In this document: piece after piece, positions 8,041 to 45,656 of the stretch
How the letters are laid out: each line of letters opens with the position of its first letter
Position numbering within the stretch: the first letter of the stretch is position 1
Origin: Lacunisphaera sp.
Lineage (GTDB): Bacteria > Verrucomicrobiota > Verrucomicrobiia > Opitutales > Opitutaceae
Assembly: GCA_029945855.1 (NCBI GenBank)
Contig: JAQSDJ010000071.1
Coordinates: 1 to 48,947 of the forward strand
Direction of reading: 5' to 3'
Length of the DNA: 48,947 bases
Position numbers and translations under genes: made by a program
The notes under the pieces: generated by a model
What the model saw: only the letters and a program-made list of their open reading frames with translations
The model's database searches: none
What the model was told of the DNA's origin: nothing

Positions 8041-8080
8041 ATCAGGCGTTCCGCGTGATGCCGGGATCAACCGGGGCATT

Positions 8081-8170
8081 TCACCACGGATCTCACGGCT
8101 AAGCACGGATGGGCAGGCCTGGGCCCCGGCATTTATCCGGGTCCAGCCGTGAAATCCGTGGTTAAAAATG
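8081..8170. repeat. palindromic repeat (ccacggatt family)
   Basis: The left arm 'tcaccacggatctcacgg' (8081-8098) and right arm 'cagccgtgaaatccgtggtt' (8143-8162) can form a hairpin. A further partial arm (ttctgtgtattccg ... gtggttat) lies at 8240-8271, directly before polX. The 240 bp between menE and polX hold only these arms. Confidence 0.7.
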
Positions 8171-8280
8171 ATCGGGAGCACAGGCATCAGCCCCATTCCC
8201 TCCGTGGTCGCCGCGTCCCCGGTGTTTAGATTATCTCACTTTTCTGTGTATTCCGCGCCCGCCGTGGTTATTTTCCGCCC

Positions 8281-10041: not shown

Positions 10042-10060
10042 ATTGTCCGTCAAACCACGA

Positions 10061-10107
10061 CGAGGTCGCCGTGGCTCTAGATTAATCCTGGAGCGCGGGC
10101 GACCTCG
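10061..10107. terminator. inverted repeat downstream of polX
   Basis: Perfect 10-bp arms CGAGGTCGCC (10061-10070) and GGCGACCTCG (10098-10107) flank a 27-base loop. There is no T-tract, so an intrinsic terminator is doubtful; a structural or regulatory hairpin is equally possible. The rest of the 284-bp gap before the aminotransferase shows nothing else recognisable. Confidence 0.4.
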
Positions 10108-10325
10108 CGCGTGGGCTGAAATTTCAGCGGTTCCTCCGCTCGGGGATCCGAGGCGCGGCGCGTCCGCGGCCCATGAATATTCCGGCCTACTCCCAACGGG
10201 CTAGACGCTCCGGGCAAGAAACGCGGCCCATTCGCCAATCCCTGCCCAGCGCCATTCGCCCGGTTGGAGGAAAGTAACCGCCAACCGGCCCCGCTTTGTT
10301 TTACCCCTCCGCCGGCTCCCTCCCC

Positions 10326-29134: not shown

Positions 29135-29368
29135 TCAGGCGAGCAGTTTCTTGGTGTCTTCGAGCGAGGGCACCTTGCCGGCGACCTTGACGACGCCATC
29201 GACGACGAGCGCCGGGGTGAACATCACGCCGAAACCCATGATGCGGTCGAGTTCGGTGACCTTCTCGATCTCGTAGGCGAGGCCGAGGCCCTGGGCGGCC
29301 TCATCGGCCACCGCGGCGAGTTTCTGGCATTTGGCACAACCCGTGCCGAGGATTTGGATTTTCTTCAT
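29135..29368 (-). CDS. small thioredoxin-fold protein with CxxC (redox-active disulfide protein)
   Basis: This 77-residue cytosolic protein, MKKIQILGTGCAKCQKL at its start, has a CxxC centre at residues 11-14 and the cis-Pro segment MFTPALVVDG near residue 52. It matches the TM0996/MTH895 glutaredoxin-like group, which is habitually encoded next to DUF318/ArsP permeases. The start is the ATG at 29368; it lies 29 bp downstream of the permease gene. Confidence 0.87.
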   Translation of the reverse strand: MKKIQILGTGCAKCQKLAAVADEAAQGLGLAYEIEKVTELDRIMGFGVMFTPALVVDGVVKVAGKVPSLEDTKKLLA

Positions 29369-29397
29369 GGGAATTATGGGTCGGGAAATGGCGAAAG

Positions 29398-30696
29398 TCA
29401 CACGAGTGACCCGTAGCCCCAGCCGACGAGAGTGGAGAGGCCGATGACGAGTCCGACATAGGCGGCGGTTTTCTTCGGCCCGATGACCGAGTTGATCACG
29501 ATCATGCTCGGCAGGCTCAGCGCTGGTCCGGCGAGGAGCAGGGTGAGCGCCGGGCCCTGGCCCATGCCGCTGCCGATCAGGCCCTGGAGGATCGGCACCT
29601 CGGTGAGCGTGGCGAAATACATCAAGGCCCCGGCGACGGCGGAAAAGAGATTCGCCCCGAAGGAGTTTCCGCCTACCGAGCCGGCGATCCAGCCGTTGGG
29701 TATCAGGCCTTCGTGTCCGGGACGGCCGAGCAGCAAACCCGCTACCAGCACGCCTCCGATGAGAAGCGGGAAGATCTGTTTGGCATTGGCCCAGGACTGG
29801 TCGAACCACTCCCCGGCCTCGCCGTCCTGTCCGGCGGTGCCCCAGGCGAGACCGGCGACGGCGACGAGCACGGCCACCTGCGGGTGATCCGGGGCGAAGA
29901 GGCCGGCTGCGGCCGTGGCGACGGCGGTGAGCGAGAGTCGCATCGGGGATAGTTTGAACCAACGCCACAGGATCAGCCCAAGCAGGGCGGCAAGGCCCGC
30001 GGTGAGCCACCATTTGGCGGCGAACACCGTGGCGAAGAAACCGGTTGTGTCGTCCGAGCGGCCCCAGTTTGCGAAAACCAAAATCGCCACCAGCAGGCCG
30101 AAGAACACGGCGGTCTGCCAGAGGGGGCGCGGAGCCGGCGGCTCGGGCAGTTCGGCCAGCTTGATCGCCTTGGCTTTTTCCTCGTGACGGAAGAGCCAGT
30201 GCATCAGCACGCCGATCACCACGGAAAACACCACCGCCCCGATCGCCCGGGCCACGCCCAGTTGGAGCCCGAGGACCTTCGCGGTGAGGATGATCGCCAG
30301 CGCATTGATGGCCGGACCGGAGTAGAGGAAGGCCGTGGCCGGACCCAGGCCGGCGCCCATCCGGTAGATGCCCGAAAAGAGGGGGAGCACGGTGCAGGAG
30401 CAGACCGCGAGAATCGTGCCGGATACCGAGGCCACCCCGTAACTCGTGGCTTTCGGCGCGTTGGGCCCGAAGTAGCGCATGACCGACTGCTGGGAGACGA
30501 AGGCGCCGATCGCCCCGGCGATCCAGAAGGCCGGCAGGAGGCAGAGGATCACATGTTCCCTCATATACCACTTGGTCAACGCCAGGGCCTCCTGCACGGC
30601 GCCGTCGAAGCGGGGTGTGCCGAGCGGCAGGAAGTAGAACCCGGCAAAGACGGCCGCCATCAGGGCGAGGATCTGCAGTTCTTTGCGGGTGTTCAT
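29398..30696 (-). CDS. ArsP_1/DUF318 family permease
   Basis: This integral membrane protein of 432 residues has about ten hydrophobic helices. The conserved ArsP/DUF318 features are the SGTILAVCSCTVLPLFSGIY stretch with its CSC pair (about 93-112), LYSGPAINALAI, and the C-terminal repeat FATLTEVPILQGLIGSGMGQGPALTLLLAGPALSLPSMIV. Characterised ArsP proteins extrude trivalent organoarsenicals such as methylarsenite and roxarsone(III); other DUF318 members are of unknown substrate. ArsR just upstream and thioredoxin-like proteins downstream favour a metalloid substrate. 'taaaggac' directly precedes the ATG. Confidence 0.87.
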   Translation of the reverse strand: MNTRKELQILALMAAVFAGFYFLPLGTPRFDGAVQEALALTKWYMREHVILCLLPAFWIAGAIGAFVSQQSVMRYFGPNAPKATSYGVASVSGTILAVCSCTVLPLFSGIYRMGAGLGPATAFLYSGPAINALAIILTAKVLGLQLGVARAIGAVVFSVVIGVLMHWLFRHEEKAKAIKLAELPEPPAPRPLWQTAVFFGLLVAILVFANWGRSDDTTGFFATVFAAKWWLTAGLAALLGLILWRWFKLSPMRLSLTAVATAAAGLFAPDHPQVAVLVAVAGLAWGTAGQDGEAGEWFDQSWANAKQIFPLLIGGVLVAGLLLGRPGHEGLIPNGWIAGSVGGNSFGANLFSAVAGALMYFATLTEVPILQGLIGSGMGQGPALTLLLAGPALSLPSMIVINSVIGPKKTAAYVGLVIGLSTLVGWGYGSLV

Positions 30697-30743
30697 GTCC
30701 TTTAGACCAGGGTGCGTGGTGATGGTGGGGCTGAATCGCGGGC

Positions 30744-31067
30744 TCAGCCGCAGCAGCGGCGCATTTCGACCGCCTCGCCCTTCCGGGCGGCGTCGAGGCA
30801 GTCCATGAAGGAAGGCACGCAGGGCAGGGCGATGGAGTAGAACACCTGCAGCCCGCGCTTCTCATCCGCCACGACCCCCGCCTGCTTCAGGACCGAGAGG
30901 TGGCGCGACACCGTGGACCAGCTGGAGCCGACGGACTTCACCAGGTCGCACACGCAGCGTTCGCCCGCGGTGAGATCGTCCACGATGCGCAGCCGGTCGG
31001 GGTGGCCCAGGGCCTTGAAGACCTCCGCCCGGTGGCGGAGCTGAGCGAGAGGAGCGCGGGAGGGCAT
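30744..31067 (-). CDS. arsR: ArsR family metalloregulator
   Basis: The protein has 107 residues from ATG 31067 (MPSRAPLAQL); the frame is open upstream but not conserved. The winged helix domain includes ALGHPDRLRIVDDL and STVSRHLSVLKQAGVV. The ERCVCDLV segment closely matches the ELCVCDL As(III)-binding motif of ArsR. Further cysteines lie in ALPCVPSFMDCLD and in the C-terminal RRCCG, so metalloid binding may be multi-site. It heads the seven-gene minus-strand cluster and should repress it from the divergent region 31068-31339. Confidence 0.9.
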   Translation of the reverse strand: MPSRAPLAQLRHRAEVFKALGHPDRLRIVDDLTAGERCVCDLVKSVGSSWSTVSRHLSVLKQAGVVADEKRGLQVFYSIALPCVPSFMDCLDAARKGEAVEMRRCCG

Positions 31068-31854: not shown

Positions 31855-31947
31855 TATCTGCCGATGGATGCGTAGCGGTAAAATTCCGGCCCGGGCATAG
31901 TGGCGGGCAGTCCCATCGCCCAATTCCCGGCGTTGGCCACTACCTAC

Positions 31948-33393
31948 ATGTCCCTGCCCCCGCTGTCCCGGTTCCGCACCCTGATCCTTGCCGCAACGAT
32001 CCTCGGGATCGTTGCCCCGGCAACCCTGCATGCCACCAACGGCATGAACATGGAGGGCTACGGGCCCGTCGCCACCGCGATGGGCGGGGCCTCGCTCGCC
32101 TTTGACAACGGCACCGCCGGCCTGATCAACAATCCGGCGACGCTGGGCCTGATGGAGGGGAACGCCCGCCTGGACCTGGCCTTCGGCATCCTTGGGCCGA
32201 ACATCAAGGTCAGCAGCCCGGCGACCGCGCCGAACATCTTCGGCGTGCCGGCGAACCAGACGGCGAAGTCCTCCGCCAACGCCTTCTTCATGCCGGCCAT
32301 GGGCTACACCCGGCGCACGGGCAACTTCGTCTACGGCCTCGGGATGTTCGGCCAGGGCGGCATGGGCTGCGAATACGATGAGAATTCCTGGCGCGGTTTG
32401 GGCTTCGGCCTCAAGAACCGCACGGAGGTGTCCGTCGGTCGCCTGATCGTGCCGCTCGTCTACAAGTTCAGCGAGACGTTGCAGATCGGCGCGACGGCCG
32501 ACTTCATGTGGGCCGGCATGGATCTCCAGATGGCGATGAGTGGCAACCAGTTTTTCGACCTCGTGATGCCCACCAGCCAGCATTTCGGCCGCGCTTCGGG
32601 CACGATCGTGCAGAGCTTCAGCCAGATCCTCGGCATGATGCCGGCCGGCACGTCGGTGGACTACGCCTATTTCAACTTCACCAATGGCAGCATGTTCACC
32701 GGCGAGGCCCGCGCCTACGGCTACGGCGGCAAGCTCGGCGTCCTCTACACGCCATCGAAGGAGCTCAGCTTCGGCCTGACCTACCACACCCAGTCGAAAC
32801 TCTCCGACATGACGACCCAGGGGAACACGCTCAGCTTCCAGCTGAACGTCCCCGGCATGGGGCGGATGCCGCAGACCCTCACGGGTGACTTCCGCATCCG
32901 CGACTTCCAGTGGCCGGCGCTCCTCGGCGCCGGTTTCGCCTGGAAGCCCGCCCCGCGCTGGCTGATCGCGGCGGACCTGCGCGAGATATTCTGGCAGGAT
33001 GTGATGCAGCAGTTCAACATGAGCTTCGTCGCCTCGGGCGCGGCCTCGAACGGCAGCTTCGCCGGACAGAACCTCGACGCGGTGCTCTTCCAGAACTGGA
33101 AGAACCAGACGGTCCTTCAGCTGGGCGCCGCCTACGAGGCGAGCGAGCAGCTCACGCTGCGCGGCGGCTTCAACACCGGGAACAATCCGGTGCCGGACTA
33201 TTACCTGAACTGCCTGTTCCCGGCCATCGTGAAGACCCACCTCACCGCCGGCATCGGCTGGAAGTTCGATGCCCGCTCGTCGGTCGACGCGTCCTTCACC
33301 TACGGGTTCAAGGCGGACCCGGTGAATGGCTCGGGCTCCAGCGTCAGCCACAGCCAGACCAATCTCCAGGTCATGTATAGCCACCGCTTTTAG
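31948..33393 (+). CDS. OmpP1/FadL/TodX family outer membrane protein
   Basis: The protein has 481 residues from ATG 31948 (MSLPPLSRF) with a signal peptide ending near THA/TLHA. The mature N-terminus (TNGMNMEGYGPVATAMGGASLAFDNGTAGLINNPATLGLM) is the typical FadL hatch region, where the NPA box is conserved. The body alternates short beta strands and the C-terminus ends in an aromatic residue (YSHRF), as outer-membrane barrels do. FadL-like channels pass hydrophobic or poorly soluble compounds; next to sulfur genes it might carry sulfur species, but that is speculation. A start at 31900 is in frame but lacks signal character. Confidence 0.87.
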   Translation: MSLPPLSRFRTLILAATILGIVAPATLHATNGMNMEGYGPVATAMGGASLAFDNGTAGLINNPATLGLMEGNARLDLAFGILGPNIKVSSPATAPNIFGVPANQTAKSSANAFFMPAMGYTRRTGNFVYGLGMFGQGGMGCEYDENSWRGLGFGLKNRTEVSVGRLIVPLVYKFSETLQIGATADFMWAGMDLQMAMSGNQFFDLVMPTSQHFGRASGTIVQSFSQILGMMPAGTSVDYAYFNFTNGSMFTGEARAYGYGGKLGVLYTPSKELSFGLTYHTQSKLSDMTTQGNTLSFQLNVPGMGRMPQTLTGDFRIRDFQWPALLGAGFAWKPAPRWLIAADLREIFWQDVMQQFNMSFVASGAASNGSFAGQNLDAVLFQNWKNQTVLQLGAAYEASEQLTLRGGFNTGNNPVPDYYLNCLFPAIVKTHLTAGIGWKFDARSSVDASFTYGFKADPVNGSGSSVSHSQTNLQVMYSHRF

Positions 33394-33540
33394 GCGGTCC
33401 GGCCCGGGGGATCCAACATTGGCTAATACGCCGGATAGATAACTGAATGAACTGACTACCCGGGGGGTTGAATTTTGACTTCGGGGCCGAACTACAACAT
33501 TCAAACGACTATTAGAATGATAAACCGCAGCCAAGCCGCC

Positions 33541-35730
33541 ATGAACACCCTGTCCCGCCGCCGTTTTCTCAAGATCAGCGCTTCCACTTTGCTGGCGGCG
33601 GGTGTGGTCGGACGGGCCACGGCCGCCCTGGCCTCCGCGACCACCCGCGAACCGAAGTGCGTTCGGGAAGTGCCGACCTTCTGCGACATCTGTTTCTGGA
33701 AGTGCGGCGCGATCGCCAGCGTGCGCGACGGCAAGCTGTGGAAGATTGAGGGCAACCCCGCCGATCCGCTGTGTCGCGGCCGACTCTGCCCGCGGGGCAC
33801 CGGTGGCATCGGCGCCCATTCTGATCCGGACCGCCTCCGCACCCCGCTCATCCGCACCAACGAGCGCGGCGAGGAGAAATGGCAGGCCGTCACCTGGGAT
33901 GAGGCGCTGGAATACATCGCCGGGAAGATGCAGAAGATCAAGGCCGAGCACGGCCCCGAATCCATGGCGCTGTTCAGCCACGGCATCGGCGGCACCTTCC
34001 TCAAGCACACCCTCAAGGCCTACGGCACGGTCAACATTGCGGCTCCCTCCTTTGCCCAGTGCCGCGGTCCGCGGGACGTTGGTTTCCGCCTCACTTTCGG
34101 CGAGGATGTCGGTTCACCCGAGCGCACCGACATCGAGAATGCGCAATGCCTGGTCCTCATCGGCTCCCACCTGGGCGAGAACATGCACAATACCCAGGTG
34201 CAGGAGTTCGCCACCGCGGTCGGCCGCGGGGCGAGCGTCATCGTCGTCGACCCGCGCTTCTCGGTCGCCGCCAGCAAGGCCAAGTTCTACCTGCCGATCA
34301 AACCCGGCACCGACCTCGCCCTGGTCCTTGCCTGGATGAACGTCATCGTCACCGAGAAGCTCTACGATGCCGCCTACGTGGAGGAACATGGATTCGGCTT
34401 CGATCAGTTTGCCGCGTCGCTCACCGGCTACACGCCCGAGTGGGCTTATCCGGAAACCGGCATCGACCCGGACACGATCCGCGCCACTGCCCGCGAGATG
34501 GCCCGCTACCGTCCGGCCACCCTGGTTCACCCCGGCCGCCATGTGAATTGGAATGGCGATGATGCCCAGCGCAGTCGGGCCATCGCCCTGCTCAACGCCC
34601 TCCTCGGCAGTTGGGGCCGCAAGGGCGGCTTCTATACGCCCTCGAGCATGGACATGCCGGATTATCCGTATCCACCGTATCCGAAGCCGGCGAAACCGAA
34701 GGTGGACAACCCCGACCACAAATATCCCTTCGCCCACGAGGCCATCACGACGGGCATCCGGGACGCCACCATCACGGGCCAGCCATACCCGATCAAGGGG
34801 TGGATGGTCTACGCCACGAATCTCCTCCACGCCCTCCCGAATGAGGCCGAGACCATCCGCGCCATCCAGCAGCTCGACCTGCTCGTGGTGGTCGACGTGA
34901 TCCCGAGCGAAATCGCCGGCTGGGCCGATGTCGTGCTGCCGGAGTCCACCTACCTGGAGCGCCACGACGAGCTGAACGTCGAACTCTTCAAGGATCCCTT
35001 TGTCGCGCTCCGCCAGCCGGTCCTGGATTCGCCGGACGACCAGAAGCCCAACTGGTGGATCGCCAAAAAACTCGCCGAGAAACTCGGGCTGGGCGCCTTC
35101 TATCCGTGGAAGACGATCGAGGAATATCTGGAGCACCGCGTCACGGAGGCGGGGCTCGATTTCGCCGAGCTCAAGAAGAAAGGCATCATTCGCGGCCCCC
35201 GCCAGCCGATCTACTTCGAGGAAGGCGCCCCCGCCGAGTTCGGCACGCCCTCGGGCAAGATTGAGTTTTACTCCCCGCAGCTTGAAAAAGCCGGCTTCGA
35301 TCCCGTGCCGCGATACACCCCGCCCGTGGCCGGCCCGCCCGGAGCCTTCCGCCTCCTGTTCGGCCGGGCCCCGGTCCACTCCTTCAGCCGCACGCACACC
35401 AACCGGCTCCTCAGCGACATGATGGACGAGAACGCCGTCTGGGTGAACGCCGACATCGCCCGCCGCGCCGGTTTGAAAAGCGGCGACACGGTGCGCCTCA
35501 AGAACCAGGACGGCGTCCTGAGCAACCGCGTGAAGGTGAAGGCCACGGAGCGCATCCGGCCGGATTGCGTTTACCTCGTCCACGGCTTCGGCCACACCGC
35601 CCGCGGGATGCGCCACGCCTACGGCAAGGGCGCGAGCGACGCGCAGATGATCACCCGCTACAAGACCGACCCCCTCATGGGCGGCACCGCGATGAACGTG
35701 AATTTCGTCACCCTGGAGGCGGAGACCTGA
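33541..35730 (+). CDS. psrA: molybdopterin oxidoreductase catalytic subunit (PsrA/PhsA type)
   Basis: This Mo-bis-MGD enzyme has 729 residues from ATG 33541 (MNTLSRRRFLKISASTLLAA). The SRRRFLK twin-arginine signal predicts export of the folded protein. The 4Fe-4S motif is C48-x2-C51-x3-C55-x27-C83, and Cys174 in SFAQCRGPRD is the likely Mo ligand, fitting the polysulfide/thiosulfate-type (Cys) branch rather than Ser enzymes. GRHVNWNGDDAQRSRAIALL and LLFGRAPVHSFSRTHTN are typical of the family. The substrate is unresolved: polysulfide, thiosulfate, tetrathionate and arsenic oxyanions are all possible. psrB starts 3 bp downstream. An AT-rich patch upstream (33465-33540) may hold the promoter. 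Confidence 0.88.
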   Translation: MNTLSRRRFLKISASTLLAAGVVGRATAALASATTREPKCVREVPTFCDICFWKCGAIASVRDGKLWKIEGNPADPLCRGRLCPRGTGGIGAHSDPDRLRTPLIRTNERGEEKWQAVTWDEALEYIAGKMQKIKAEHGPESMALFSHGIGGTFLKHTLKAYGTVNIAAPSFAQCRGPRDVGFRLTFGEDVGSPERTDIENAQCLVLIGSHLGENMHNTQVQEFATAVGRGASVIVVDPRFSVAASKAKFYLPIKPGTDLALVLAWMNVIVTEKLYDAAYVEEHGFGFDQFAASLTGYTPEWAYPETGIDPDTIRATAREMARYRPATLVHPGRHVNWNGDDAQRSRAIALLNALLGSWGRKGGFYTPSSMDMPDYPYPPYPKPAKPKVDNPDHKYPFAHEAITTGIRDATITGQPYPIKGWMVYATNLLHALPNEAETIRAIQQLDLLVVVDVIPSEIAGWADVVLPESTYLERHDELNVELFKDPFVALRQPVLDSPDDQKPNWWIAKKLAEKLGLGAFYPWKTIEEYLEHRVTEAGLDFAELKKKGIIRGPRQPIYFEEGAPAEFGTPSGKIEFYSPQLEKAGFDPVPRYTPPVAGPPGAFRLLFGRAPVHSFSRTHTNRLLSDMMDENAVWVNADIARRAGLKSGDTVRLKNQDGVLSNRVKVKATERIRPDCVYLVHGFGHTARGMRHAYGKGASDAQMITRYKTDPLMGGTAMNVNFVTLEAET

Positions 35731-35733: not shown

Positions 35734-36267
35734 ATGCGCTATGTAATGGTCATCGATACGAAACGCTGCGTCGGCTGCATGGACTGCGTCGTCGCCTGCA
35801 AGACGGAGAACAATGTGCCGGAGGGCTATAACCGCGACTGGATCACCGAGGAGGTGCGCGGAAAGAATCCCACGCTGCAGATGGAAATCCGCTCGGAGCG
35901 GTGCAACCACTGCGACCGCCCCCCGTGCGTGTATTGCTGCCCGACGGGGGCCAGCCACATCCATGAGGGTGGGGTGGTGCTCGTCACCCACGAGAAATGC
36001 ATCGGCTGCAAGGCCTGCATCGCCGCCTGCCCCTACGATGCCCGTTTCGTCCACCCCGAGGGCTACATCGACAAGTGCACCTTCTGCATCCACCGCGTCG
36101 AGCAGGGCCTCAAGCCCGCCTGTGTCTCGGTCTGCCCGACGCACTGCATGCACTTCGGTGACCTCGAGGATCCTCAGAGCGAGGTCGCCCGTCTGCTCAG
36201 TTCTCGCGCCCACCACTCGCTGCTGCCGCAAACCGGCTGCCAGCCCCATGTTTTCTACCTCACCTGA
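35734..36267 (+). CDS. psrB: four-cluster ferredoxin-like subunit (PsrB type)
   Basis: The protein has 177 residues and no signal peptide, consistent with export in complex with the Tat-bearing catalytic subunit. Four 4Fe-4S cluster motifs are visible: CVGCMDCVVACK (12-23), CNHCDRPPCVYCCP (about 58-71), CIGCKACIAACP (about 90-101) and CTFCIHR followed by CVSVCP (about 118-139). It shuttles electrons between the Mo centre and the membrane NrfD-like subunit encoded 6 bp downstream. Confidence 0.93.
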   Translation: MRYVMVIDTKRCVGCMDCVVACKTENNVPEGYNRDWITEEVRGKNPTLQMEIRSERCNHCDRPPCVYCCPTGASHIHEGGVVLVTHEKCIGCKACIAACPYDARFVHPEGYIDKCTFCIHRVEQGLKPACVSVCPTHCMHFGDLEDPQSEVARLLSSRAHHSLLPQTGCQPHVFYLT

Positions 36268-36273: not shown

Positions 36274-37326
36274 ATGCCCCTCGAACTGACCACCACCCGA
36301 CATAATCCCGGGATTGACCCCCTGCTACACGCCTGGGGTTGGGAAATTCCGGTCTATCTTTTCATCGGCGGTCTCGTAGCCGGGCTCATGATCATCGCGG
36401 GTGTCCGCCTGCTCGTGGCCAAGCCCCGGGAGCGCCAGGCCATGGTCTGCTGCACCCTCGGGCCCCTCGTCGGCCTGGCGCTGCTCAGCCTCGGCATGCT
36501 GGCCCTGTTCATGGATCTCTCGCACAAGCTCTATGTGTGGCGGCTCTACCTCTCGTTCGAGCCGACCGCACCCATGTCGTGGGGTTCGTATATTCTGCTC
36601 CTCGTTTATCCGGCCCTTCTGGCGAACGCCCTCACGCATCTGCCGGAAGCGATTCCTTCCCTGGCCAAGCGGTTCCCGGTGCTGCTGACGATCAGTGACT
36701 ATATCCTCGCCCGGCAGCGCATGGTGATCAGCATCGGCGTGAGCAACATGCTCATCGGCGTCGCGCTGGGCGTCTACACCGGTGTCCTGATCAGCGGCCT
36801 GCCGGCTCGGCCGCTGTGGAACACCTCGCTCCTCGGGCCGCTGTTCCTTTTCTCCGGGCTCTCCACCGCCGCGGCGCTGCTCCATGCCATTCTGGTCATT
36901 TCCATGAAGGAGGAGGACCGGCCGGCGTTCGCCGACATTCTGCTCACCTCGCTCGCCCGCTGGTCGCAGGGCCGCGGGCCGGATACCAGCATCGCCCCGA
37001 TCCTGACCCGGGCCGACAACAGTTTTCTCACCATCGAACTGGGTCTGCTGATGCTCTTCCTCATCGGCCTGGTGACCTCGACCGAAGTCAATGCGCAGGC
37101 TGCGGCGCTGTTGCTCACTGGGGCCTATGCCGCGCCGTTCTGGGTGCTGGTGATCGGCATCGGCATCATCACCCCGCTCATTTTGCAGTTTCTCGAATTG
37201 CAGAACCGCATCCGCCACACCCTCGCGCCCGCGGTCCTCGTGCTGGTCGGCGGCCTGGCGCTGCGGTTCATCCTCGTTTTCGCGGGCCAGGAAAGCCACT
37301 GGCTGCGCGTCGTCGCCGGCCCCTGA
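36274..37326 (+). CDS. psrC: NrfD/PsrC-like integral membrane subunit
   Basis: The protein has 350 residues with eight to nine hydrophobic helices. The N-terminal WGWEIPVYLFIGGLVAGLM and the middle MVISIGVSNMLIGVALGVYTGVLIS match the NrfD/PsrC family, which exchanges electrons with menaquinone and anchors the Psr complex. The menaquinone would come from the menC/menE pathway, also encoded in this window. The 28-bp gap to the next gene is short enough for one operon. Confidence 0.92.
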   Translation: MPLELTTTRHNPGIDPLLHAWGWEIPVYLFIGGLVAGLMIIAGVRLLVAKPRERQAMVCCTLGPLVGLALLSLGMLALFMDLSHKLYVWRLYLSFEPTAPMSWGSYILLLVYPALLANALTHLPEAIPSLAKRFPVLLTISDYILARQRMVISIGVSNMLIGVALGVYTGVLISGLPARPLWNTSLLGPLFLFSGLSTAAALLHAILVISMKEEDRPAFADILLTSLARWSQGRGPDTSIAPILTRADNSFLTIELGLLMLFLIGLVTSTEVNAQAAALLLTGAYAAPFWVLVIGIGIITPLILQFLELQNRIRHTLAPAVLVLVGGLALRFILVFAGQESHWLRVVAGP

Positions 37327-37354: not shown

Positions 37355-37885
37355 ATGTCCCATCCCAACCTCCCCCCTAAACCTTACCTGAATCCCTACC
37401 TCGCGGGATTCGGCCTCGGCCTCGTGCTCCTCACGACTTTTATCGTGATGGGCCGCGGACTCGGCGCCTCCGGCGCCTTCACCTCGGTGGTCGCCACGGC
37501 GGTGCATGCCGTCGCTCCCGCTCACGCGGAGAACAACGCCTTTTATGCCGAATATCTCGGCGATGGCACCAAGAGCCCGCTGAAGGACTGGCTCGTGTTC
37601 GAGGTCCTGGGCGTCTTCATCGGCGGCCTGCTCTCGGGCGCCTTCGCCAATCGCCTGAAGGTGACCGTGGAAAAAGGCCCGAACATCTCGACCCGGTGGC
37701 GGCTGCTGCTGGCTTTCGTCGGTGGGGCCATCCTCGCGGTCGGCGCCAAGCTGGCCCTCGGCTGCATGAGCGGTCAGGCGCTCAGCGGCGGGGCTCTGCT
37801 GAATCTCGGCAGCTGGGTGGCCATGATGTGCATCTTCGGCGGTGCTTACGCACTGGCCTGGTTTGTCCGGAGGCAATGGCTATGA
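37355..37885 (+). CDS. YeeE/YedE family transporter, first half-size protein
   Basis: The 176-residue membrane protein has about four hydrophobic segments and the conserved YeeE/YedE Cys motif in LALGCMSGQALSGG (about 127-140). Bacterial YeeE (TsuA) takes up thiosulfate through three such cysteines. Here the family is split over two adjacent genes; this one overlaps the next by the ATGA at 37882-37885, so they probably act together as a heteromeric sulfur-compound channel next to a putative sulfur-respiratory enzyme. A large periplasmic loop around residues 40-70 (HAENNAFYAEYLGDGTKSPLKD) is unusual. Confidence 0.85.
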   Translation: MSHPNLPPKPYLNPYLAGFGLGLVLLTTFIVMGRGLGASGAFTSVVATAVHAVAPAHAENNAFYAEYLGDGTKSPLKDWLVFEVLGVFIGGLLSGAFANRLKVTVEKGPNISTRWRLLLAFVGGAILAVGAKLALGCMSGQALSGGALLNLGSWVAMMCIFGGAYALAWFVRRQWL

Positions 37886-38865
37886 ACGCTCCCTTCTATT
37901 CGTTCGGCCTGTTCAGCGACGAGTTCTCGCTCATCGTCGCCTTCGTCATCGGCGTGGGCTTCGGTTTCTGCCTCGAGCAGGCCGGTTTTGGCAGCGCCCG
38001 CAAGCTCACCGCCCAGTTCTACTTCAGCGACCTCTCGGTGCTGAAGGTGATGTTCACCGCCATCGTGACCGCGATGTCCGGGCTGTATGTGGTTTCGCGC
38101 CTGGGCCTCGTCGATCTGTCGCTCGTGCACCTGACGCCCACGTTCCTTCTGCCGCAGATCGCCGGCGGCCTGCTCCTCGGCGTGGGTTTCGTCATCGGCG
38201 GTTATTGTCCCGGCACCTCGGTTGTCTCGGCCGCCACCGGCCGGATCGACGCCGTGTTTTACCTGCTCGGCATCATGGCGGGCCTGTTTGGCTATGCTGA
38301 AATCTATCCGTATATCGCGGACTGCACGCAGATGACGTCCATGGGTGAGTTGACGATCCCCGGATGGACCGGGCTGCCTTATGGGGTGGTGGTCTTCGGG
38401 GTCGTGGTCATGGCGATCGGCGCTTTCATCGCTGCCGAGTGGGCCGAGAAACTGCTGGGCGGTGTCACGCCGCCCGCGGATTCGCTGACCGGTTCGCCGC
38501 GTCCCCTCAATGCCGCCCGCCTGCTGATGCTGGGGCTCCTCGCGGTGGGCGCATTCGCCGCCATCGGGGGCAATCCCTACCACGAAGGCCGGGTGACGAT
38601 CGATACCCGCGAACTGGCCCGTCTCTCCAGTGTCACCGCGGACCGTCTCGCTCCCGCCGAACTGGCCGACTGGCTGGTCACCGGCCGCGCCGACTATCTT
38701 CTCATCGATCTGCGTTCCGCCGAGGAGTTCGCCGCCCACCGGATCCCCGGGGCGCAACATGTGCCCTTGGCGCAGCTGACCGACCAAGTCGCCTCCCGGG
38801 CGGAAAAGATCGTGCTCTACGCCAAGGACGATGTGCCCGCGGCCCAAGCCTGGATCCTGCTGTAG
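37882..38865 (+). CDS. YeeE/YedE transporter half fused to a rhodanese-like domain, ended early by TAG
   Basis: ATG 37882 is preceded at suitable spacing by GGAGG (37869-37873) and overlaps the previous stop. Residues 1-200 are membrane segments with the YeeE motif GGYCPGTSVVSAATGR (about 108-123). Residues about 240-327 begin a rhodanese domain (YLLIDLRSAEEFAAHRIPGAQHVPL). The active-site loop reads VLYAKDDVP, so the catalytic Cys is replaced by Ala and sulfurtransferase activity is unlikely. Translation meets TAG at 38863-38865 in the middle of this domain, and homologous sequence continues in frame afterwards (see 38866-39141). Confidence 0.8.
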   Translation: MNAPFYSFGLFSDEFSLIVAFVIGVGFGFCLEQAGFGSARKLTAQFYFSDLSVLKVMFTAIVTAMSGLYVVSRLGLVDLSLVHLTPTFLLPQIAGGLLLGVGFVIGGYCPGTSVVSAATGRIDAVFYLLGIMAGLFGYAEIYPYIADCTQMTSMGELTIPGWTGLPYGVVVFGVVVMAIGAFIAAEWAEKLLGGVTPPADSLTGSPRPLNAARLLMLGLLAVGAFAAIGGNPYHEGRVTIDTRELARLSSVTADRLAPAELADWLVTGRADYLLIDLRSAEEFAAHRIPGAQHVPLAQLTDQVASRAEKIVLYAKDDVPAAQAWILL

Positions 38866-39202: not shown

Positions 39203-39613
39203 ATGCGCCCCGGCCATCCACATCCCAAGGTCTTCAGCCGGCGAACCCTTTTGTGGATGCTCGCGTCCGTGCCCCTCGCTTGGGCGCTCGGGCCCATGCT
39301 GCGGCGGGTGCGGGTGCAAAACCAGCCGGCCCCGGTGCCAATTCCGCCGGATGTGCCCACCGGGTTGAGCGTGGCCGGCGAGGCCATCGTGCACCGCGGC
39401 CCCGACGGCACCGTGCGGGCCTTTGCGTCCCGCTGCACTCATCTCGGTTGCCGGCTGGACCGGATCAAGGACGGCACGATCGTGTGTCCCTGCCACGGCT
39501 CGAGCTTCGCGGCCGACGGCCGCGTGTTGACGGGGCCGGCCGTGCGCCCGCTCGCCCCCCTGCGCGTCCTTCCGGACGCGGCCACCGGAGGCTGGATCGC
39601 CCATGCCGGCTGA
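39203..39613 (+). CDS. Rieske [2Fe-2S] protein
   Basis: The protein has 136 residues. The N-terminus has twin arginines and a hydrophobic anchor (SRRTLLWMLASVPLAWALG), suggesting Tat export and membrane anchoring. The cluster-binding boxes are CTHLGC and CPCHGSS, with the usual 16-residue spacing, and GPAVRPLAPLRV follows. The short length matches minimal bc-type Rieske subunits. The stop overlaps the start of the cytochrome b/multiheme gene by 11 bp, so the two should be co-translated and form one quinol-oxidising complex. Confidence 0.92.
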   Translation: MRPGHPHPKVFSRRTLLWMLASVPLAWALGPMLRRVRVQNQPAPVPIPPDVPTGLSVAGEAIVHRGPDGTVRAFASRCTHLGCRLDRIKDGTIVCPCHGSSFAADGRVLTGPAVRPLAPLRVLPDAATGGWIAHAG

Positions 39614-42380
39614 ACGCGAAAGTGAGCCGCGCCGGTTCCTGACATTTCGCGGCGTCACGACGGGCGATGTGGCGATCGCCGCCTTCGGGTTGTGCGCCAT
39701 ATCGGGCATGCTGCTCGCCGGGGCCTTCGACCCCCGCGATGGCGCCCGTTCCATCGCCGAGTGGCTGCTGGGCAACCCGGGGGCGGTGTTTTTGCGCAAT
39801 GTGCATTACTGGACGGCGCAGCTGTTCCTCGTCTTCACCGGCCTGCATGTCTGGGATCACTTCCAGGCGGCGACCGAGACCCGGGTGAAACCCGCGGTCT
39901 GGCTGCGGCTGGTCCTGAGCGTGCCGGTCATTGCCTTTCTGATGTTGTCGGGGTTCCTCCTCCGCGGCGATGCCGACGCCCGGCAAGCCCAGCTTATCTT
40001 CACGGAGGCGATCACCCTGATCCCGTTCGCCGGGCCGTCGCTAGCAACGCTCCTCGTGGGCACGGGCGACCACTTGATGGTCGTGTATGTGCAGCATGCG
40101 GCGACCGCGACCATCATCGTGTGGCTGGTCATCATCGAGCATGCCCGCCGGCTCTGGCCGAAATCCGGGATCTTCACCGTCGTCTCACTGGCCGCCGGGG
40201 CGTTGGCGTTCGTGCTGTCGCCGGGTTTGCACGACGGGCTGGACGCCCTGGTGAAGGGGCCGTGGTATTTCCTCGGCCTGCAGGAAATCCTGCATTGGAC
40301 GAGCTGGCCCTTGGCCGTCCTGGTCGCCGGAGGGCTCTTGCTGGGACTGATGGTGATGCTCCCGCGCATGACTGAGGTGTGGGCGATGCGAACGAAAACC
40401 TTTCTGCTGATGACCGGCGGCGTCTACCTCATCCTCTGCGGCGTCGGTTTGTTTCTGCGCGGTGAAAACTGGAGCTGGCGGCCCAACTGGCCGGCCGGAC
40501 GAAGCGATCTGCGGCCCGGATTCATCATCCCGGCTGCGCCGAATCCAGCCATTGTCATTCCCGCCAAACTGCCGGTGGTGCTGGGCCGCCCGGAAGGCTG
40601 CCTCGTCTGCCATGGTGACATCACGGGGCTGGGGGATGCGCACCGCCCCGAGAGCATTGGCTGCGCGTCGTGCCACGAGGGCGACCGGTTCACCCTGGAC
40701 AAGGAGCGGGCGCATGCCGGCATGATCCTTGTGCCAGGCAATCTCGCCGATGCACCGCGCACCTGCGGGCTGGCCGGGTGCCACACCGACATCATTCCCC
40801 GGGTGGAGCGCTCGATCATGACGACCTTCTCAGGTGTCATCTCGGCCAACCGGCGGGTCTTCGGGGAGACCGCCCCGATTGCGGCCGCCCCGCCCCACGT
40901 GCGCGACCTCGGCACTTCTGCGGCGGACAGTCACCTGAGGCAGCTCTGCGTCTCCTGTCACCTCGGTCAGGAAAAGATCGCCTGGGGCCCGATCGTCCAG
41001 GAGTCCCGGGGCGGCGGGTGCAATGCCTGCCACCTCGTTTACGACCAGGCTGCCACGGAAGGCCTGGCCCGCTACGAGGCCGCCCCGCTCGGTGCCCGCG
41101 GTGAGATTCCGAAAGTTCATCCCGCACTTTCCGTCAACGCGGACAACAGCCACTGCTTCGGTTGCCACAGCCGCTCGGGCCGCATTTCGACGAATTACGA
41201 AGGCTGGCACGAGATGCACGAGCCCCCGCCCGCCGCCGCACTGCTGGCCGATCAAACGTCCACGCCCGCGCAGTTCCGGCAATTGGACGACGGCCGCTAT
41301 TTCACGCGCATGACCCCGGACGTCCACCAGGAGCGTGGCATGGACTGCATCGATTGCCATACCGCCACCGAGGTTATGGGCGATGGGCGGACGGTGGCGC
41401 ACAAGAATCAACAGGTGCAGATCAGGTGCGAGGACTGCCACGCCCGCCCGTTGGCCTCGATGCCGGCGGCGATGCTTGATCCGGAATCCCTCAAGCTGCT
41501 CGCGATCCGGAAATGGACGTTGGAGTCAGCCCAGCGCTTCGGGACCACCCGCACGGGCAGTGCCCTCTTCAATGTCACGGTCGACGCCAGCGGCGTGGGT
41601 CAGTTGAAGCGCAAGCGCACCGGCCAGCCGGCCGAGTTGCGGGCCCCGCTCGCCGTCTGTGTGGAAGGCAACGGCCACGACCGGCTGACCTGCAATGCCT
41701 GTCACGCGGCGTGGGCTCCCCGGTGCGCCTCCTGTCATACCTCCTTCAAGCCGGACCTGGAGGGTTACGACCATCTCACCCAGATGCCGACCAAGGGAGC
41801 TTGGGTGGAATCGTCCGGGGGATTCGAGACCGCGCCCCCGACGCTCGGCATCCGCACCGATCCGGCCGACGCGACCCGGCCGCAAGGCGTGGTGGACACC
41901 TTCGTGCCCGGCATGATCATGGAACTGGACCGCAACATGCAGTCCGGCCAGTCGGCCGACCCGGTGTTCCGGCGGATGTATGCCCGCACCTTCGCCCACA
42001 CCATCCGCCGCGAGGCACGGTCCTGCCAGTCGTGTCACAACGATCCGGTTGCGCTCGGCTACGGCCGCGGTGAGTTGCGCTACGTTGTGGCGGACGGGGT
42101 GGGGCGCTGGCAATTCACCCCGCTGCACGAGAGCCTGCCCCAGGACGGGCTGCCGGCCGATGCCTGGGTTGGATTTCTCCAATCGAGGAACGGAATGTTG
42201 TCCACGCGGGATGAGGTGCGCTCCTTCACCCCCGAGGAGCAGCGCCGGATACTGCAGGTGGGCGCCTGCCTGACCTGTCATGCCGGGGACTCCCCGGTGA
42301 TGAAGCAGGCCATAGCTGATTTCGCGGGCGCGCTTTCGCGTCGCCACACCTCGTGCATGGTCCCGTCTTGGCCCAAGTAA
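39603..42380 (+). CDS. cytochrome b fused to a 12-heme c-type cytochrome
   Basis: The protein has 925 residues. The N-terminal ~295 form a complete cytochrome b with two bis-His heme pairs, H68/H82 (x13) and H165/H180 (x14, b6f-type spacing), the Qo motif as PWYF (220-223, replacing PEWY) and seven or more hydrophobic segments ending in LFLRGENWSW. From residue 333 there are twelve heme c sites: eleven CxxCH (starting at C333, 354, 449, 473, 518, 582, 609, 697, 708, 808 and 889) and one CX4CH (C388-H394). This replaces cytochrome c1. With the Rieske protein it probably moves electrons between menaquinol and periplasmic carriers. Fusions of b- and multiheme c-cytochromes are known elsewhere (for example CbcL of Geobacter, with a different layout). 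Confidence 0.92.
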   Translation: MPAERESEPRRFLTFRGVTTGDVAIAAFGLCAISGMLLAGAFDPRDGARSIAEWLLGNPGAVFLRNVHYWTAQLFLVFTGLHVWDHFQAATETRVKPAVWLRLVLSVPVIAFLMLSGFLLRGDADARQAQLIFTEAITLIPFAGPSLATLLVGTGDHLMVVYVQHAATATIIVWLVIIEHARRLWPKSGIFTVVSLAAGALAFVLSPGLHDGLDALVKGPWYFLGLQEILHWTSWPLAVLVAGGLLLGLMVMLPRMTEVWAMRTKTFLLMTGGVYLILCGVGLFLRGENWSWRPNWPAGRSDLRPGFIIPAAPNPAIVIPAKLPVVLGRPEGCLVCHGDITGLGDAHRPESIGCASCHEGDRFTLDKERAHAGMILVPGNLADAPRTCGLAGCHTDIIPRVERSIMTTFSGVISANRRVFGETAPIAAAPPHVRDLGTSAADSHLRQLCVSCHLGQEKIAWGPIVQESRGGGCNACHLVYDQAATEGLARYEAAPLGARGEIPKVHPALSVNADNSHCFGCHSRSGRISTNYEGWHEMHEPPPAAALLADQTSTPAQFRQLDDGRYFTRMTPDVHQERGMDCIDCHTATEVMGDGRTVAHKNQQVQIRCEDCHARPLASMPAAMLDPESLKLLAIRKWTLESAQRFGTTRTGSALFNVTVDASGVGQLKRKRTGQPAELRAPLAVCVEGNGHDRLTCNACHAAWAPRCASCHTSFKPDLEGYDHLTQMPTKGAWVESSGGFETAPPTLGIRTDPADATRPQGVVDTFVPGMIMELDRNMQSGQSADPVFRRMYARTFAHTIRREARSCQSCHNDPVALGYGRGELRYVVADGVGRWQFTPLHESLPQDGLPADAWVGFLQSRNGMLSTRDEVRSFTPEEQRRILQVGACLTCHAGDSPVMKQAIADFAGALSRRHTSCMVPSWPK

Positions 42381-42863: not shown

Positions 42864-44186
42864 ATGAACCTATCCCAAACAAAACTAGGCGTTGCGATGA
42901 TCGCGACCGCCTTGGTCGCATCGGTGACGATGTCGGCCGATATCATCGAGGCGAACATGGTCAGCCTCGAAATCAAACTGCGCGGGCAACTGCTGGCGGA
43001 AAGCACCGATTACGGCAGCGGGGCCGATTTCACCGGCGACCGCACCGACCTGCGCTTTGCGCGTTTTCGACTCACGCTCACCGGCATGATGGACGAAACC
43101 TATGGCTTCCAGATCAACACCACTAGCGTCCTCGGCACGACCAAGTCGGGTTCCACCGGCTATAGCGTGACCAGCCAGGACACTGATTACAACGACGCCA
43201 ATATCCGCCTGCATGACGGCTATTTCATCGCCAATTACAGCGAGATGCTGAACCTCAAGATCGGCCTGACGAAAATTCCCCTGACGCGGGGCAATCTCGA
43301 CGGCTGCTTTGATCCGCTCACCCTGGACCGCTCGGCCTTCATTTTCAGCGGCTACGGTGCGGTTCCGACGAAGACCAGTCGTGACATCGGCGTCACTTCC
43401 TGGGGCAAACTCGTCGATGGCCGCGTCGTTTACCAGGCCTCGGTCTTCCAAGGCCGGGAAGGTTTCACGCGGACGACCAATCCCTTCACGCAGGCTTCCG
43501 TCGTGTCGAGCCCGACCCCCAGCGAAGACTTCATGTATGTTGGTCGCGTCCACTACTCCTTCTGGGATAAGGAAGCCGCATCAGGTTATGAAGGTTCTTA
43601 TCTGGGGGATCTGAAAATCCTGACCTTCGGGGTTGGTGCCGCGTTTGAGCCGAATGCCGTCTACAAGAACGTCACCTCAGCCGGCGTGATTCAAAATGAA
43701 GAAACGGTCGACTACTCGGCGTTCACCGCCGACGTGCTGTTTGAATATCCCACCCCTATTGGCACCTCCACGATCACCGCGGCTTATCTGAAATGTGACT
43801 TCGACGATGCCTTCAGGACCAATCTGAACCCGGGGGACCGTCTCTCAAATCTCGGTGGCGTCAACGGCCAGAAGGAAGGCTGGTATGTGCGGGCCGCTTA
43901 TCTCCTGCCGCAGACTTTCGGCAAGAAAGGAAAACTGCAGCCCTACGCCTACTACGAGAATTGGGATCTGGCGGTAATTGCGGGCGTCACAGAGCAGACG
44001 ATCACCCAGAAGGCGGTCGGCTTCAATTATTTCATCACCGGCAACAACAGCGTTCGTTTCACCCTCGAATACCAGCGCAACGAGTTTGCCAAGCCCACCG
44101 CGTTTGTGACCGGCCTGCCCACATCCTCGGTTGGCGCGTTCACCGAAAACAATTCGCTGCGCGCCATGTTCCAAGTCGCATTTTGA
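42864..44186 (+). CDS. phosphate-selective-type porin (OprO/OprP family)
   Basis: The 440-residue outer membrane protein has a signal peptide (MNLSQTKLGVAMIATALVASVTMSA) from ATG 42864. The barrel begins with the family start VSLEIKLRGQLLAESTDY, then RFRLTLTGMMDETYGFQINT, LKIGLTKIPLTRGNLD, WGKLVDGRVVYQASVFQGRE and VGRVHYSFWDKE, and it ends in FQVAF with a terminal Phe. OprO/P porins pass phosphate or other anions; in this context sulfur or arsenic oxyanions are conceivable substrates. It follows the AT-rich region. Confidence 0.87.
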   Translation: MNLSQTKLGVAMIATALVASVTMSADIIEANMVSLEIKLRGQLLAESTDYGSGADFTGDRTDLRFARFRLTLTGMMDETYGFQINTTSVLGTTKSGSTGYSVTSQDTDYNDANIRLHDGYFIANYSEMLNLKIGLTKIPLTRGNLDGCFDPLTLDRSAFIFSGYGAVPTKTSRDIGVTSWGKLVDGRVVYQASVFQGREGFTRTTNPFTQASVVSSPTPSEDFMYVGRVHYSFWDKEAASGYEGSYLGDLKILTFGVGAAFEPNAVYKNVTSAGVIQNEETVDYSAFTADVLFEYPTPIGTSTITAAYLKCDFDDAFRTNLNPGDRLSNLGGVNGQKEGWYVRAAYLLPQTFGKKGKLQPYAYYENWDLAVIAGVTEQTITQKAVGFNYFITGNNSVRFTLEYQRNEFAKPTAFVTGLPTSSVGAFTENNSLRAMFQVAF

Positions 44187-44241: not shown

Positions 44242-44559
44242 ATGAAAAAACTATTCATCTCACTCATGATCCTCGCCTTCGGCGTCACCTTTGCCCTGGC
44301 CGCGGACGAAACAACGAACGGCACCGTCGTGGCCGTCGACGGCAACACGGCCACCATCGAAGTCTCCGGCAATATGGCCTGGGTCAAGAAGGGTGCCTAC
44401 GTCCGGGCCGTGGACGAATCCGGCAAGTTGCTGCTGCGCAGCGCCAAGATCACTGCCATCGAGGGCAATGTCATCACCGTCCAAACCTCGATGACCAAGG
44501 AAATGAAGGCCGGGGATAAGTATAAAATGAGCAAGGGCAAGCCGAGCGCCGGTTGCTAA
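44242..44559 (+). CDS. small secreted protein of unknown function
   Basis: The protein has 105 residues from ATG 44242 (MKKLFISLMILAFGVTFALA), with AGGAA upstream (44229-44233) as a ribosome-binding site. After the signal peptide it folds as a short beta-rich domain: TTNGTVVAVDGNTATIEVSG, GAYVRAVDESGKLLL and AIEGNVITVQTS, a pattern of SH3- or OB-like barrels. The tail is Lys-rich and ends KPSAGC. A related terminal GC occurs in the YeeE-rhodanese extension (REGC). I do not recognise the family. A hairpin terminator follows. Confidence 0.75.
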   Translation: MKKLFISLMILAFGVTFALAADETTNGTVVAVDGNTATIEVSGNMAWVKKGAYVRAVDESGKLLLRSAKITAIEGNVITVQTSMTKEMKAGDKYKMSKGKPSAGC

Positions 44560-44651: not shown

Positions 44652-44957
44652 TACCCCAGCATCTCCGCCAAAGGTGAAAGACATGGTTTCTGCATTCGCT
44701 GCGCCGGTCAAAGTATCAGGCGATCTCAGCTCAGGCCGCAGCCCCAAGCCGGTCGCGGAATGCGCCAAACGGGGACCCGCTTCCTGCCACTCCTGGCCTT
44801 TGTCGGCTTGGTTATCTGAGAGCTTCCGGGTCGGGGCGGAGGGCCGCCCACCGCCGGGATCAAGGATAGCAGGCCCCCCTGTCTTTCCCCATCTAGATAG
44901 CTGGCGCACGCTCAGTTGACCCCACGCGAGAATTCTTCCACATACGCTACATCCCGC

Positions 44958-45656
44958 ATGAAACTCAAGGATCCGCAGGCTCCGTATGAAATGATCGCCA
45001 CTCTGGGGCATGTCCTGTCCAGTCCGCTGCGACTGCGGCTTTTGCACATGCTCTGCCAGTGTGATCGGACCGTCGAGGACTTGGCGGCGGCGATTGAACA
45101 GCCTGTGGCCAACGTGTCCCACCACCTGCAGTTGATGAAGAAGGTGAATATTGTTACGACCCGGCGCATGGGCCGCCATATCGCCTACGGCCTCGCCGAT
45201 GAAACGGTGAAGAACTTCTGGCTGAATTATCGCGATTACAGCGCCACGCGGTTGGTGGAGTTGCAACAGTTGTATGCCGGGCTCTCCTCCCAACGCAGCA
45301 CGCGAGGAGGCACCGTTAACAAGGACGTGCTGGCAGAATTGATCAGGCAAAACGCCGTGGTCCTGATCGATGTGCGGCCGAAGGAGGAATACGACGCGGA
45401 CCATCTGCCGGACGCGATCTCGATTCCGCTTACCGAACTATTCCAGCGCGTCAAAGAACTTCCCTCCGACAAGATCGTCGTGCTTTACTGCCGTGGGCCC
45501 TACTGCCTGCTGGGGGACACGGCGCAGGAACAACTCGCCGGCCTTGCCATCCGGGCCCTGCGCCTGTCGGAAGGCGTGAAGGATTGGGCCGCGGCCGGCC
45601 TCCCCGTCGCCCGTTCCCCGGGGCACAAGCCGTTGGTCAATCCTAAACCGGCGTGA
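44958..45656 (+). CDS. ArsR-type HTH regulator fused to rhodanese domain
   Basis: The protein has 232 residues from ATG 44958 (MKLKDPQAPY). The N-terminal winged HTH (about 10-95) has SSPLRLRLLHMLCQCDRTVEDL and ANVSHHLQLMKKVNIVTTRRM. The C-terminal rhodanese domain (about 115-220) has VLIDVRPKEEYDADHLPDAISIPL and the active loop LYCRGPYC, with catalytic Cys intact, unlike the rhodanese-like tail at 38620-39100. Such fusions are well suited to sense sulfane sulfur through a persulfide on the rhodanese Cys. It is probably an autoregulatory controller of the surrounding sulfur genes. Confidence 0.9.
   Translation: MKLKDPQAPYEMIATLGHVLSSPLRLRLLHMLCQCDRTVEDLAAAIEQPVANVSHHLQLMKKVNIVTTRRMGRHIAYGLADETVKNFWLNYRDYSATRLVELQQLYAGLSSQRSTRGGTVNKDVLAELIRQNAVVLIDVRPKEEYDADHLPDAISIPLTELFQRVKELPSDKIVVLYCRGPYCLLGDTAQEQLAGLAIRALRLSEGVKDWAAAGLPVARSPGHKPLVNPKPA

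Follow-up and report, generated by a model that had tools for sequence, protein, structure and literature searches.

The locus described here raises the question of what takes the place of cytochrome c1 or cytochrome f when a Rieske gene is followed by a gene that joins cytochrome b to twelve c-type hemes. The DNA analyzed, a window of 48,947 nucleotides, is one whole contig (JAQSDJ010000071.1; C71) of a 5.0-Mb draft genome of Lacunisphaera sp. (G000; phylum Verrucomicrobiota, family Opitutaceae), which consists of 330 contigs and is 99% complete. In the window, the gene for a Rieske protein overlaps by 11 base pairs (bp) a gene whose product matches, in order along the chain, the models for ExtP, ExtQ (weakly) and ExtM of the Geobacter ext cluster. 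We propose, with a probability of roughly 0.6, that the products of the two genes make up a condensed Rieske/cytochrome b complex of the Ext type, which would carry out bc-type quinol oxidation and pass electrons into its fused 12-heme acceptor. This reading is favored because all four heme ligands are in place, the Rieske partner is encoded by an overlapping gene, and Geobacter offers a precedent.

A Rieske gene overlaps a three-part fusion gene

The Rieske protein carries the ligand motif C-T-H-L-G-C-x11-C-P-C-H at residues 78 to 98, with both disulphide cysteines present, and matched the Pfam Rieske model above its cut-off (expect value [E], 3.8e-15). Its best matches in the PDB were Rieske subunits of the b6f type. 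With this domain and a length of 136 amino acids, the protein fills the ExtO role of an Ext-type complex. No match to the NCBIfam model named ExtO (NF040968) was found up to an E of 10. That model has a length of 416 and matches the multiheme part of the fusion, as the ExtN model does; its label may be wrong, because ExtO has been described as a 14.1-kDa Rieske protein (PMC5877670).

An earlier note on this DNA, made from its letters and a list of open reading frames, had pointed out the two overlapping genes, two bis-His pairs, a PWYF motif and twelve c-heme motifs. All were borne out: the reading frames overlap as described, the pairs are H68-x13-H82 and H165-x14-H180, PWYF lies within GPWYF at residues 219 to 223, and the heme sites comprise 11 CxxCH motifs and one CX4CH. 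The analysis likewise supported the note's view that a 12-heme chain replaces cytochrome c1 or f beside a Rieske/cytochrome b core and that the order b then 12c is an unusual fusion. No cytochrome c1 or cytochrome f gene was found beside the fusion gene, where the ExtM-like part stands instead.

The c part matched the ExtM model (NF040943) over nearly its full length with 230.9 bits (E = 2.5e-68; curated cut-off, 800). On residues 20 to 178, the top-scoring model was ExtP (46.7 bits; E = 3.2e-12; cut-off, 290), and on residues 216 to 292, the sole NCBIfam match listed was ExtQ (18.8 bits; E = 0.0014; cut-off, 150). Since these scores all lie far under the curated cut-offs, the assignments point to homology and not to identity of function; the link to Ext was established through profile models and published papers, not through the Geobacter ext sequences themselves. 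Among stop-to-stop frames of at least 60 amino acids in the window, no second one with at least two heme motifs was found. The window thus holds a condensed O-[P-Q-M]-I-J arrangement.

The cytochrome b part

As in the bc1 and b6f complexes, the b part has four histidines for two bis-His b hemes, and these align with the histidines of canonical, Rieske-linked cytochromes b in three relatives. We take H68 and H165 to be the pair that binds heme bL, the other two binding heme bH. The subunit-IV-like part has PWYFLGLQE in common with two of the relatives (G540 and G530), which read APWYFLGLQE, and all three contain an RG-N/S-W-S/T-W stretch (RGPNWSWQVPW or RGPSWTWQVPW in the relatives). The fusion was the sole match to the Pfam model PF00033 (Cytochrome_B) in the Lacunisphaera genome at an E of 0.01, and at that threshold the 99% complete assembly yielded no canonical cytochrome b. 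The genome's other Rieske domain forms the end of a 441-amino-acid frame on a different contig (C130); there are also two matches to PF01578 (cytochrome c assembly) and four to PF00115 (heme-copper oxidase).

The earlier note had put forward structure prediction. Two AlphaFold2 models, of the full-length protein and of the b part, reached mean predicted local distance difference test (pLDDT) scores of 46.1 and 47.9, too poor for heme placement or Rieske docking, and the fold match of the b part is all that was drawn from them. The top PDB matches of both low-confidence models were nevertheless cytochrome b6 or b. The alignment behind the second model included canonical cytochromes b, a possible bias, whereas the first had none and still returned b6 first. 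The best VIA-align match (Z = 13.1; root mean square deviation, 3.9 over 175 residues) falls in a range that unrelated helical bundles can reach, and Foldseek gave no match at an E of ≤0.001 for either model.

The twelve-heme part

In 20,000 shuffles of the c part, at most two CxxCH motifs arose, against the 11 observed. The 12 heme sites are common to nine aligned ExtM sequences, except that a second fusion, in genome G472 of another genus, has 11. The earlier note had singled out the CX4CH site (residue 388; heme site 3) as setting the protein apart. This candidate was rejected, since the site reads CX4CH in seven of the nine sequences and CX2CH in the other two and the two forms are thus interchangeable among relatives.

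Occurrence of the fusion

A survey of 252 genomes of the family, with an ExtM-like match accepted at an E of 1e-10, returned 10 genomes: two with a fused ExtM, in the window and in G472, and eight with an unfused one. The search for the fusion architecture suggested by the earlier note thus yielded a second case, whereas most copies of ExtM in the family are unfused. Among 384 genomes of the class, three matched ExtM at an E of 1e-15, all within the family; the identical three were found among 387 genomes of the phylum at 1e-30, and 57 close relatives gave two matches at 1e-20. In these three samples, the window's own was the only fused ExtM.

The fusion in G472 (L020, positions 8652 to 11360, minus strand) is 902 amino acids long and shares its domain order and neighboring genes with the window. 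The two fused ExtM parts are adjacent in a tree of the 10 sequences (100/98), and on this topology a single fusion event would suffice for both. The grouping would not count as surprising: the label "fused," carried by two rows, clustered equally well in 49 of 500 shuffles, a weak statistic. Unfused ExtM proteins begin with short N-terminal stretches in which one to about three hydrophobic segments were seen by eye.

Two other arrangements were noted. In G141 (L010, positions 7793 to 10633), a gene for a DUF4405 membrane protein lies directly 5' of an unfused 12-heme ExtM-like gene, and this protein is a possible alternative electron donor. A metagenome-assembled genome from the Deltaproteobacteria (L008, positions 4292 to 7546) encodes a protein of 1,084 amino acids with 11 heme motifs that is distantly ExtM-like (24% identity) and had no Pfam cytochrome b match; it was the only find of one scan of the contigs of named genomes, for which the query was the single protein. 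Plasmids gave no match.

ExtM occurs together with a PhsA/PsrA-like molybdoenzyme

Most of the functional evidence lies in neighbors that the earlier note left out, namely, ExtI, ExtJ and an upstream operon for a PhsA/PsrA-like molybdoenzyme. With a threshold of E = 1e-100 or better, the molybdoenzyme was found in 21 of the 252 family genomes, which include all 10 genomes with ExtM (hypergeometric probability, 1.5e-12, uncorrected for kinship); none of the genomes in this set was found to carry ExtM and lack the molybdoenzyme. The fusion lies in the molybdoenzyme cluster in two of the 21 genomes, and an unfused ExtM lies beside it in five (G023, G448, G537, G540 and G549). ExtM is elsewhere in the genome in three (G141, G430 and G530), and the remaining 11 had no ExtM match. 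Several contigs stop near these clusters, in G454 inside the NrfD gene, and the absence of a neighbor is not always visible. Within the family, the companion of ExtM is the molybdoenzyme; cytochrome b is added only rarely.

The neighbors of the molybdoenzyme vary. In G033, G457, G463 and G464, ExtI and ExtJ directly follow the NrfD-type gene, with no YeeE pair there; among the 21 genomes, YeeE and ExtI/ExtJ were seen together only in the window and G472. ExtI as an obligate partner of ExtM, forming an outer-membrane conduit, was weakened as a candidate by the same four genomes, which have ExtI and ExtJ without ExtM, and by five genomes in which ExtM lies beside the molybdoenzyme without an ExtI match. 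At an E of 1e-10, the ExtI model matched 17 of the 387 phylum genomes, only the window above the cut-off. Of the 16 other ExtI neighborhoods, 6 were inspected, two of them shorter than 4 kb, and none of these 6 showed a gene with at least two heme motifs. Four relatives (loci L095, L096, L097 and L098) hold a compact cluster of ArsR-rhodanese, molybdoenzyme, 4Fe-4S, NrfD, ExtI and ExtJ genes with no multiheme gene nearby.

Proposed path of electrons

In the complex that we propose, residues ~1 to 290 would form a seven-helix cytochrome b, with b6-like helices around two b hemes and a subunit-IV-like part bearing the loop of the quinol oxidation (Qo) site, and residues ~330 to 902 would continue the chain as a periplasmic wire of 12 hemes. 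The separate Rieske protein would probably be made in step with the fusion through the 11-bp overlap and would dock on it. The b part would oxidize menaquinol at its periplasmic face; of the two electrons, one would pass by way of the Rieske cluster to the nearest c heme of the wire, and the second would travel by way of hemes bL and bH. The fusion would fix the wire at the docking place of cytochrome c1 or f, and from there electrons would be handed on in the periplasm for the respiration or disposal of chalcogen compounds. The gene cluster probably handles sulphur- or selenium-type compounds; candidates are thiosulphate or polysulphide, or selenite or tellurite, which the adjacent PhsA/PsrA-like complex, the YeeE transporters and the ExtI porin would handle.

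The sequence itself shows the order of the domains, the cofactor motifs, the composition of the cluster, a second fusion and the link to the molybdoenzyme; oxidation of quinol, the kind of quinone, the direction of the electrons, docking of the Rieske protein on the fusion and the substrate are inferred.

More tentatively, the product might be a single-chain 14-heme quinol dehydrogenase (two b and 12 c hemes) that, together with the Rieske protein, would bifurcate electrons from menaquinol directly into a periplasmic multiheme reductase or wire coupled to the PhsA-like enzyme, as a combined module for the respiration of chalcogen compounds. The parts of ext would then have been fused onto a sulphur-respiration operon, with a second lineage losing its bH heme and having no Rieske neighbor.

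A natural P-Q-M fusion suggests that ExtM is the direct partner of cytochrome b and stands in for cytochrome c1 or f, which split genes cannot show, and with the chain fused, two gene products suffice to test stoichiometry and docking. The pairing of ExtM with the PhsA/PsrA-like molybdoenzyme, in this family far more frequent than that with cytochrome b, provides a concrete lead to the substrate.

Alternatives to bc-type quinol oxidation

Several observations weigh against bc-type quinol oxidation, and the chief doubts come from an altered Qo pocket and from losses in G472. The Qo motif of the fusion is GPWY, which retains WY and lacks the glutamate at the second position, and the LPWDQ of the cd1 segment in relatives has become LRGDADA in the window, with GDADA in the place of WDQ in both fusions. 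The altered cd1 segment presumably touches the quinol pocket. Because the pocket appears altered, a full Q cycle would not be assured. A review reports a correlation between the residue at this position of the Qo motif and both the potentials of the cofactors and the type of quinone (PMC9162462).

The b part is also divergent as a whole. The earlier note had called it a full cytochrome b; by Pfam the match is weak: PF00033 scored 23.1 bits by hmmscan, under the cut-off of 27.2 (26.6 in the genome search, or 27.3 together with neighbors), and DUF4405 scored 27.7, slightly above its cut-off of 26.7. The low Ext scores and the poor structure models point the same way. In G472, the b part is only 34% identical to that of the window (95 of 281 positions), against 63% for the c parts (356 of 561); it retains the equivalents of H68 and H165, the other two (of H82 and H180) having been lost, it had no ExtQ match, and a deletion has removed one c heme. 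No Rieske gene lies next to the G472 fusion, the sole Rieske match of that genome being on another contig. The b part may thus be dispensable, and G472 possibly represents a bc-type complex in the course of losing its Q cycle. On the same side stand the eight unfused copies among 10, the lack of a b or Rieske match beside five of the seven ExtM copies that adjoin the molybdoenzyme, the four genomes with the molybdoenzyme and ExtI/ExtJ yet no ExtM, and a molybdoenzyme tree in which the window and G472 group only loosely (54/74).

The alternative that best survives is that the b part is being reduced to anchoring the chain in the membrane or to admitting electrons in one direction, with neither bifurcation nor a Q cycle. 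ExtM would be fed by heme bL alone or by the NrfD-type subunit; a leftover, or a protein used elsewhere, is what the Rieske protein would then be. The lost WDQ segment and glutamate would fit such a change, as would the retention in G472 of the pair assigned to bL with no adjacent Rieske gene, and unfused ExtM proteins have only their short N-terminal stretches. The window, however, keeps four histidines, an intact Rieske protein and an overlapping gene, and in the two relatives with APWY, which likewise lack the glutamate, a Rieske gene lies next to the cytochrome b gene, and there is a gene for a hexaheme cytochrome c. We regard this alternative as possible and rather improbable.

The 12-heme part could itself carry out the terminal reduction, with sulphite, selenite or tellurite as possible substrates, which would make the fusion a one-chain quinol:oxyanion reductase. 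Proximal ligands aside, the nine aligned ExtM sequences have eight invariant histidines in common, and a ninth, H600, is present in eight of them; G472 alone lacks it and also lacks the heme at 609 to 613. Nine non-proximal histidines in at least eight of nine sequences, for 12 hemes, would leave up to three c hemes that may have no conserved distal histidine, a tally that is a count from the alignment and not from a structure. Two invariant non-heme cysteines, C686 and C918, and the presence of the molybdoenzyme in every ExtM genome found among the 252 also favor a reductase. Against this, M406, M592 and M771 are invariant in the nine sequences and could serve as ligands for those up to three hemes, no model of a known multiheme reductase matched the c part above its cut-off, and the structure model is too poor for heme placement. 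A terminal reductase is considered unlikely.

Electrons might also flow in reverse: the molybdoenzyme would oxidize a sulphur or selenium compound in reduced form, and electrons would travel along the multiheme chain and the b part towards quinone or an oxidase. The four PF00115 matches make oxygen respiration possible, but the molybdoenzyme scored best with the model of a reductase, PhsA, and it is in reduction that ExtI has a known role; this direction seems quite improbable. An assembly or sequencing artefact at the b-c join, a doubt that the earlier note had raised and for which the draft state of the assembly and an in-frame stop in a neighboring gene could be cited, deserves almost no credence and was rejected, given the independent fusion with shared order and neighbors in another genus and a third-position G+C content that is uniform along the gene, including the join (0.76 to 0.91).

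The gene cluster in the window

The coordinates of the cluster are given in Table 1. The molybdoenzyme scored under the cut-off of the PhsA equivalog model (694 bits), and PhsA was nonetheless its best-scoring model. The companion cytochromes ExtKL, ExtN and ExtS were not found in the window, the only part of the genome searched for them.

Table 1. Features of the ext-like cluster and its upstream operon in the window
Feature	Position	Strand	Basis and remarks
FadL/TodX-type outer-membrane protein	31900..33393	+	Adjoins molybdoenzyme in many relatives, not in G472
PhsA/PsrA-like molybdopterin oxidoreductase, cluster core	33475..35730	+	PhsA model, 521.6 bits; Pfam Molybdopterin, E = 2e-44
4Fe-4S electron-transfer subunit, DsrO/TtrB/NrfC type	35734..36267	+	Profile matches
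NrfD/PsrC-type membrane subunit	36274..37326	+	Pfam NrfD, E = 6.8e-36
YeeE/YedE (TsuA-like) transporter, first half	37355..37885	+	Profile matches
YeeE/YedE second half with rhodanese domain	37882..38865	+	Ended by in-frame TAG
Rieske [2Fe-2S] protein, 136 amino acids	39203..39613	+	RR pair, then N-terminal hydrophobic anchor; ExtO counterpart by domain, size and position
ExtP-ExtQ-ExtM fusion, 925 amino acids	39603..42380	+	b6-like part, subunit-IV-like part, 12-heme c part
Cytochrome b6-like part, residues 20-178	39660..40136	+	Heme b ligands H68, H82, H165; the fourth, H180, just past it
Subunit-IV-like part, residues ~186-292	40158..40478	+	Contains GPWYFLGLQE and RGENWSWRPNW
12-heme c part, residues 330-902	40590..42308	+	ExtM model (NF040943)
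ExtI, outer-membrane porin	42864..44186	+	NF040900, 280 bits (cut-off, 150); start moved to internal ATG (listed reading frame starts at 42792)
ExtJ, small protein, function unknown	44242..44559	+	NF040942, 55.7 bits (cut-off, 52.5); start moved to internal ATG
ArsR-family repressor-rhodanese fusion	44916..45656	+	Same cluster in G472, G454, G033, G463, G464, G457

Two further features were seen near these genes. The TAG at positions 38863 to 38865 cuts the rhodanese domain at a site where five aligned relatives have Lys or Arg, and the frame beyond it is open to about position 39139; it is either a nonsense mutation or a sequencing error. A 576-amino-acid open reading frame on the minus strand (29135 to 30865) has a C-terminal ArsE-like thioredoxin domain.

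Comparison with known systems

The earlier note had judged the locus the strongest candidate for an undescribed respiratory system. Its observation was correct and its reading over-bold: the parts fit the Geobacter ext models, and a paper of 2010 had described the ext cluster, including the 12-heme cytochrome, as a putative bc complex and, from gene content, proposed it as a site of quinol oxidation (PMC2825233). In 2018, loss of ExtI in Geobacter was reported to impair selenite and tellurite reduction, in a paper that still termed the bc-type complex uncharacterized (PMC5877670). The extHIJKLMNOPQS cluster of G. sulfurreducens encodes, according to the same paper, a rhodanese-like protein (H), a porin (I), a small protein (J), a proposed Sec-containing cytochrome (KL), a 12-heme (M) and a 10-heme (N) cytochrome, the Rieske protein (O), cytochrome b (P), a membrane protein (Q) and a lipoprotein cytochrome (S). 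ExtM homologues have also been reported in cable bacteria (PMC11976967).

The window has in common with Geobacter ext (GSU2930-2940) the Rieske protein, cytochrome b, a further membrane protein, the 12-heme cytochrome, ExtI, ExtJ and a rhodanese. Geobacter encodes ExtP, ExtQ and ExtM by three separate genes and has the further cytochromes ExtKL, ExtN and ExtS, whereas in the window P, Q and M form one chain, there is no other multiheme frame, and a PhsA/PsrA-like operon with YeeE transporters lies upstream. This operon shares with PhsABC and PsrABC a molybdenum subunit, a 4Fe-4S subunit and an NrfD-type membrane subunit and differs from PhsABC in its link to YeeE transporters, rhodanese domains and, in some genomes, ExtM.

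Other complexes resemble the window in part. Kuenenia kuste3096-3097 likewise has cytochrome b fused to its c part, which holds two hemes, in contrast to the 12 of the ExtM-like part in the window; in two other Kuenenia Rieske/cytochrome b complexes, hexa- or octaheme cytochromes replace cytochrome f (PMC12954380). In the relatives G540 (L103, positions 4803 to 8279) and G530 (L104, positions 3338 to 6474), a Rieske gene, a gene for a seven-helix cytochrome b with APWYFLGLQE and a six-heme c gene lie in a row, the last standing where cytochrome c1 would be. Unlike the window, these have separate genes, six hemes, the LPWDQ segment and PF00033 scores of about 150 bits versus about 27. In the literature searched, mostly open and with few subscription papers, no prior account of a P-Q-M fusion was found. 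The Ext-type kind has itself been described, as yet uncharacterized, and the P-Q-M fusion tied to a PhsA/PsrA-like operon is a new, condensed form of it.

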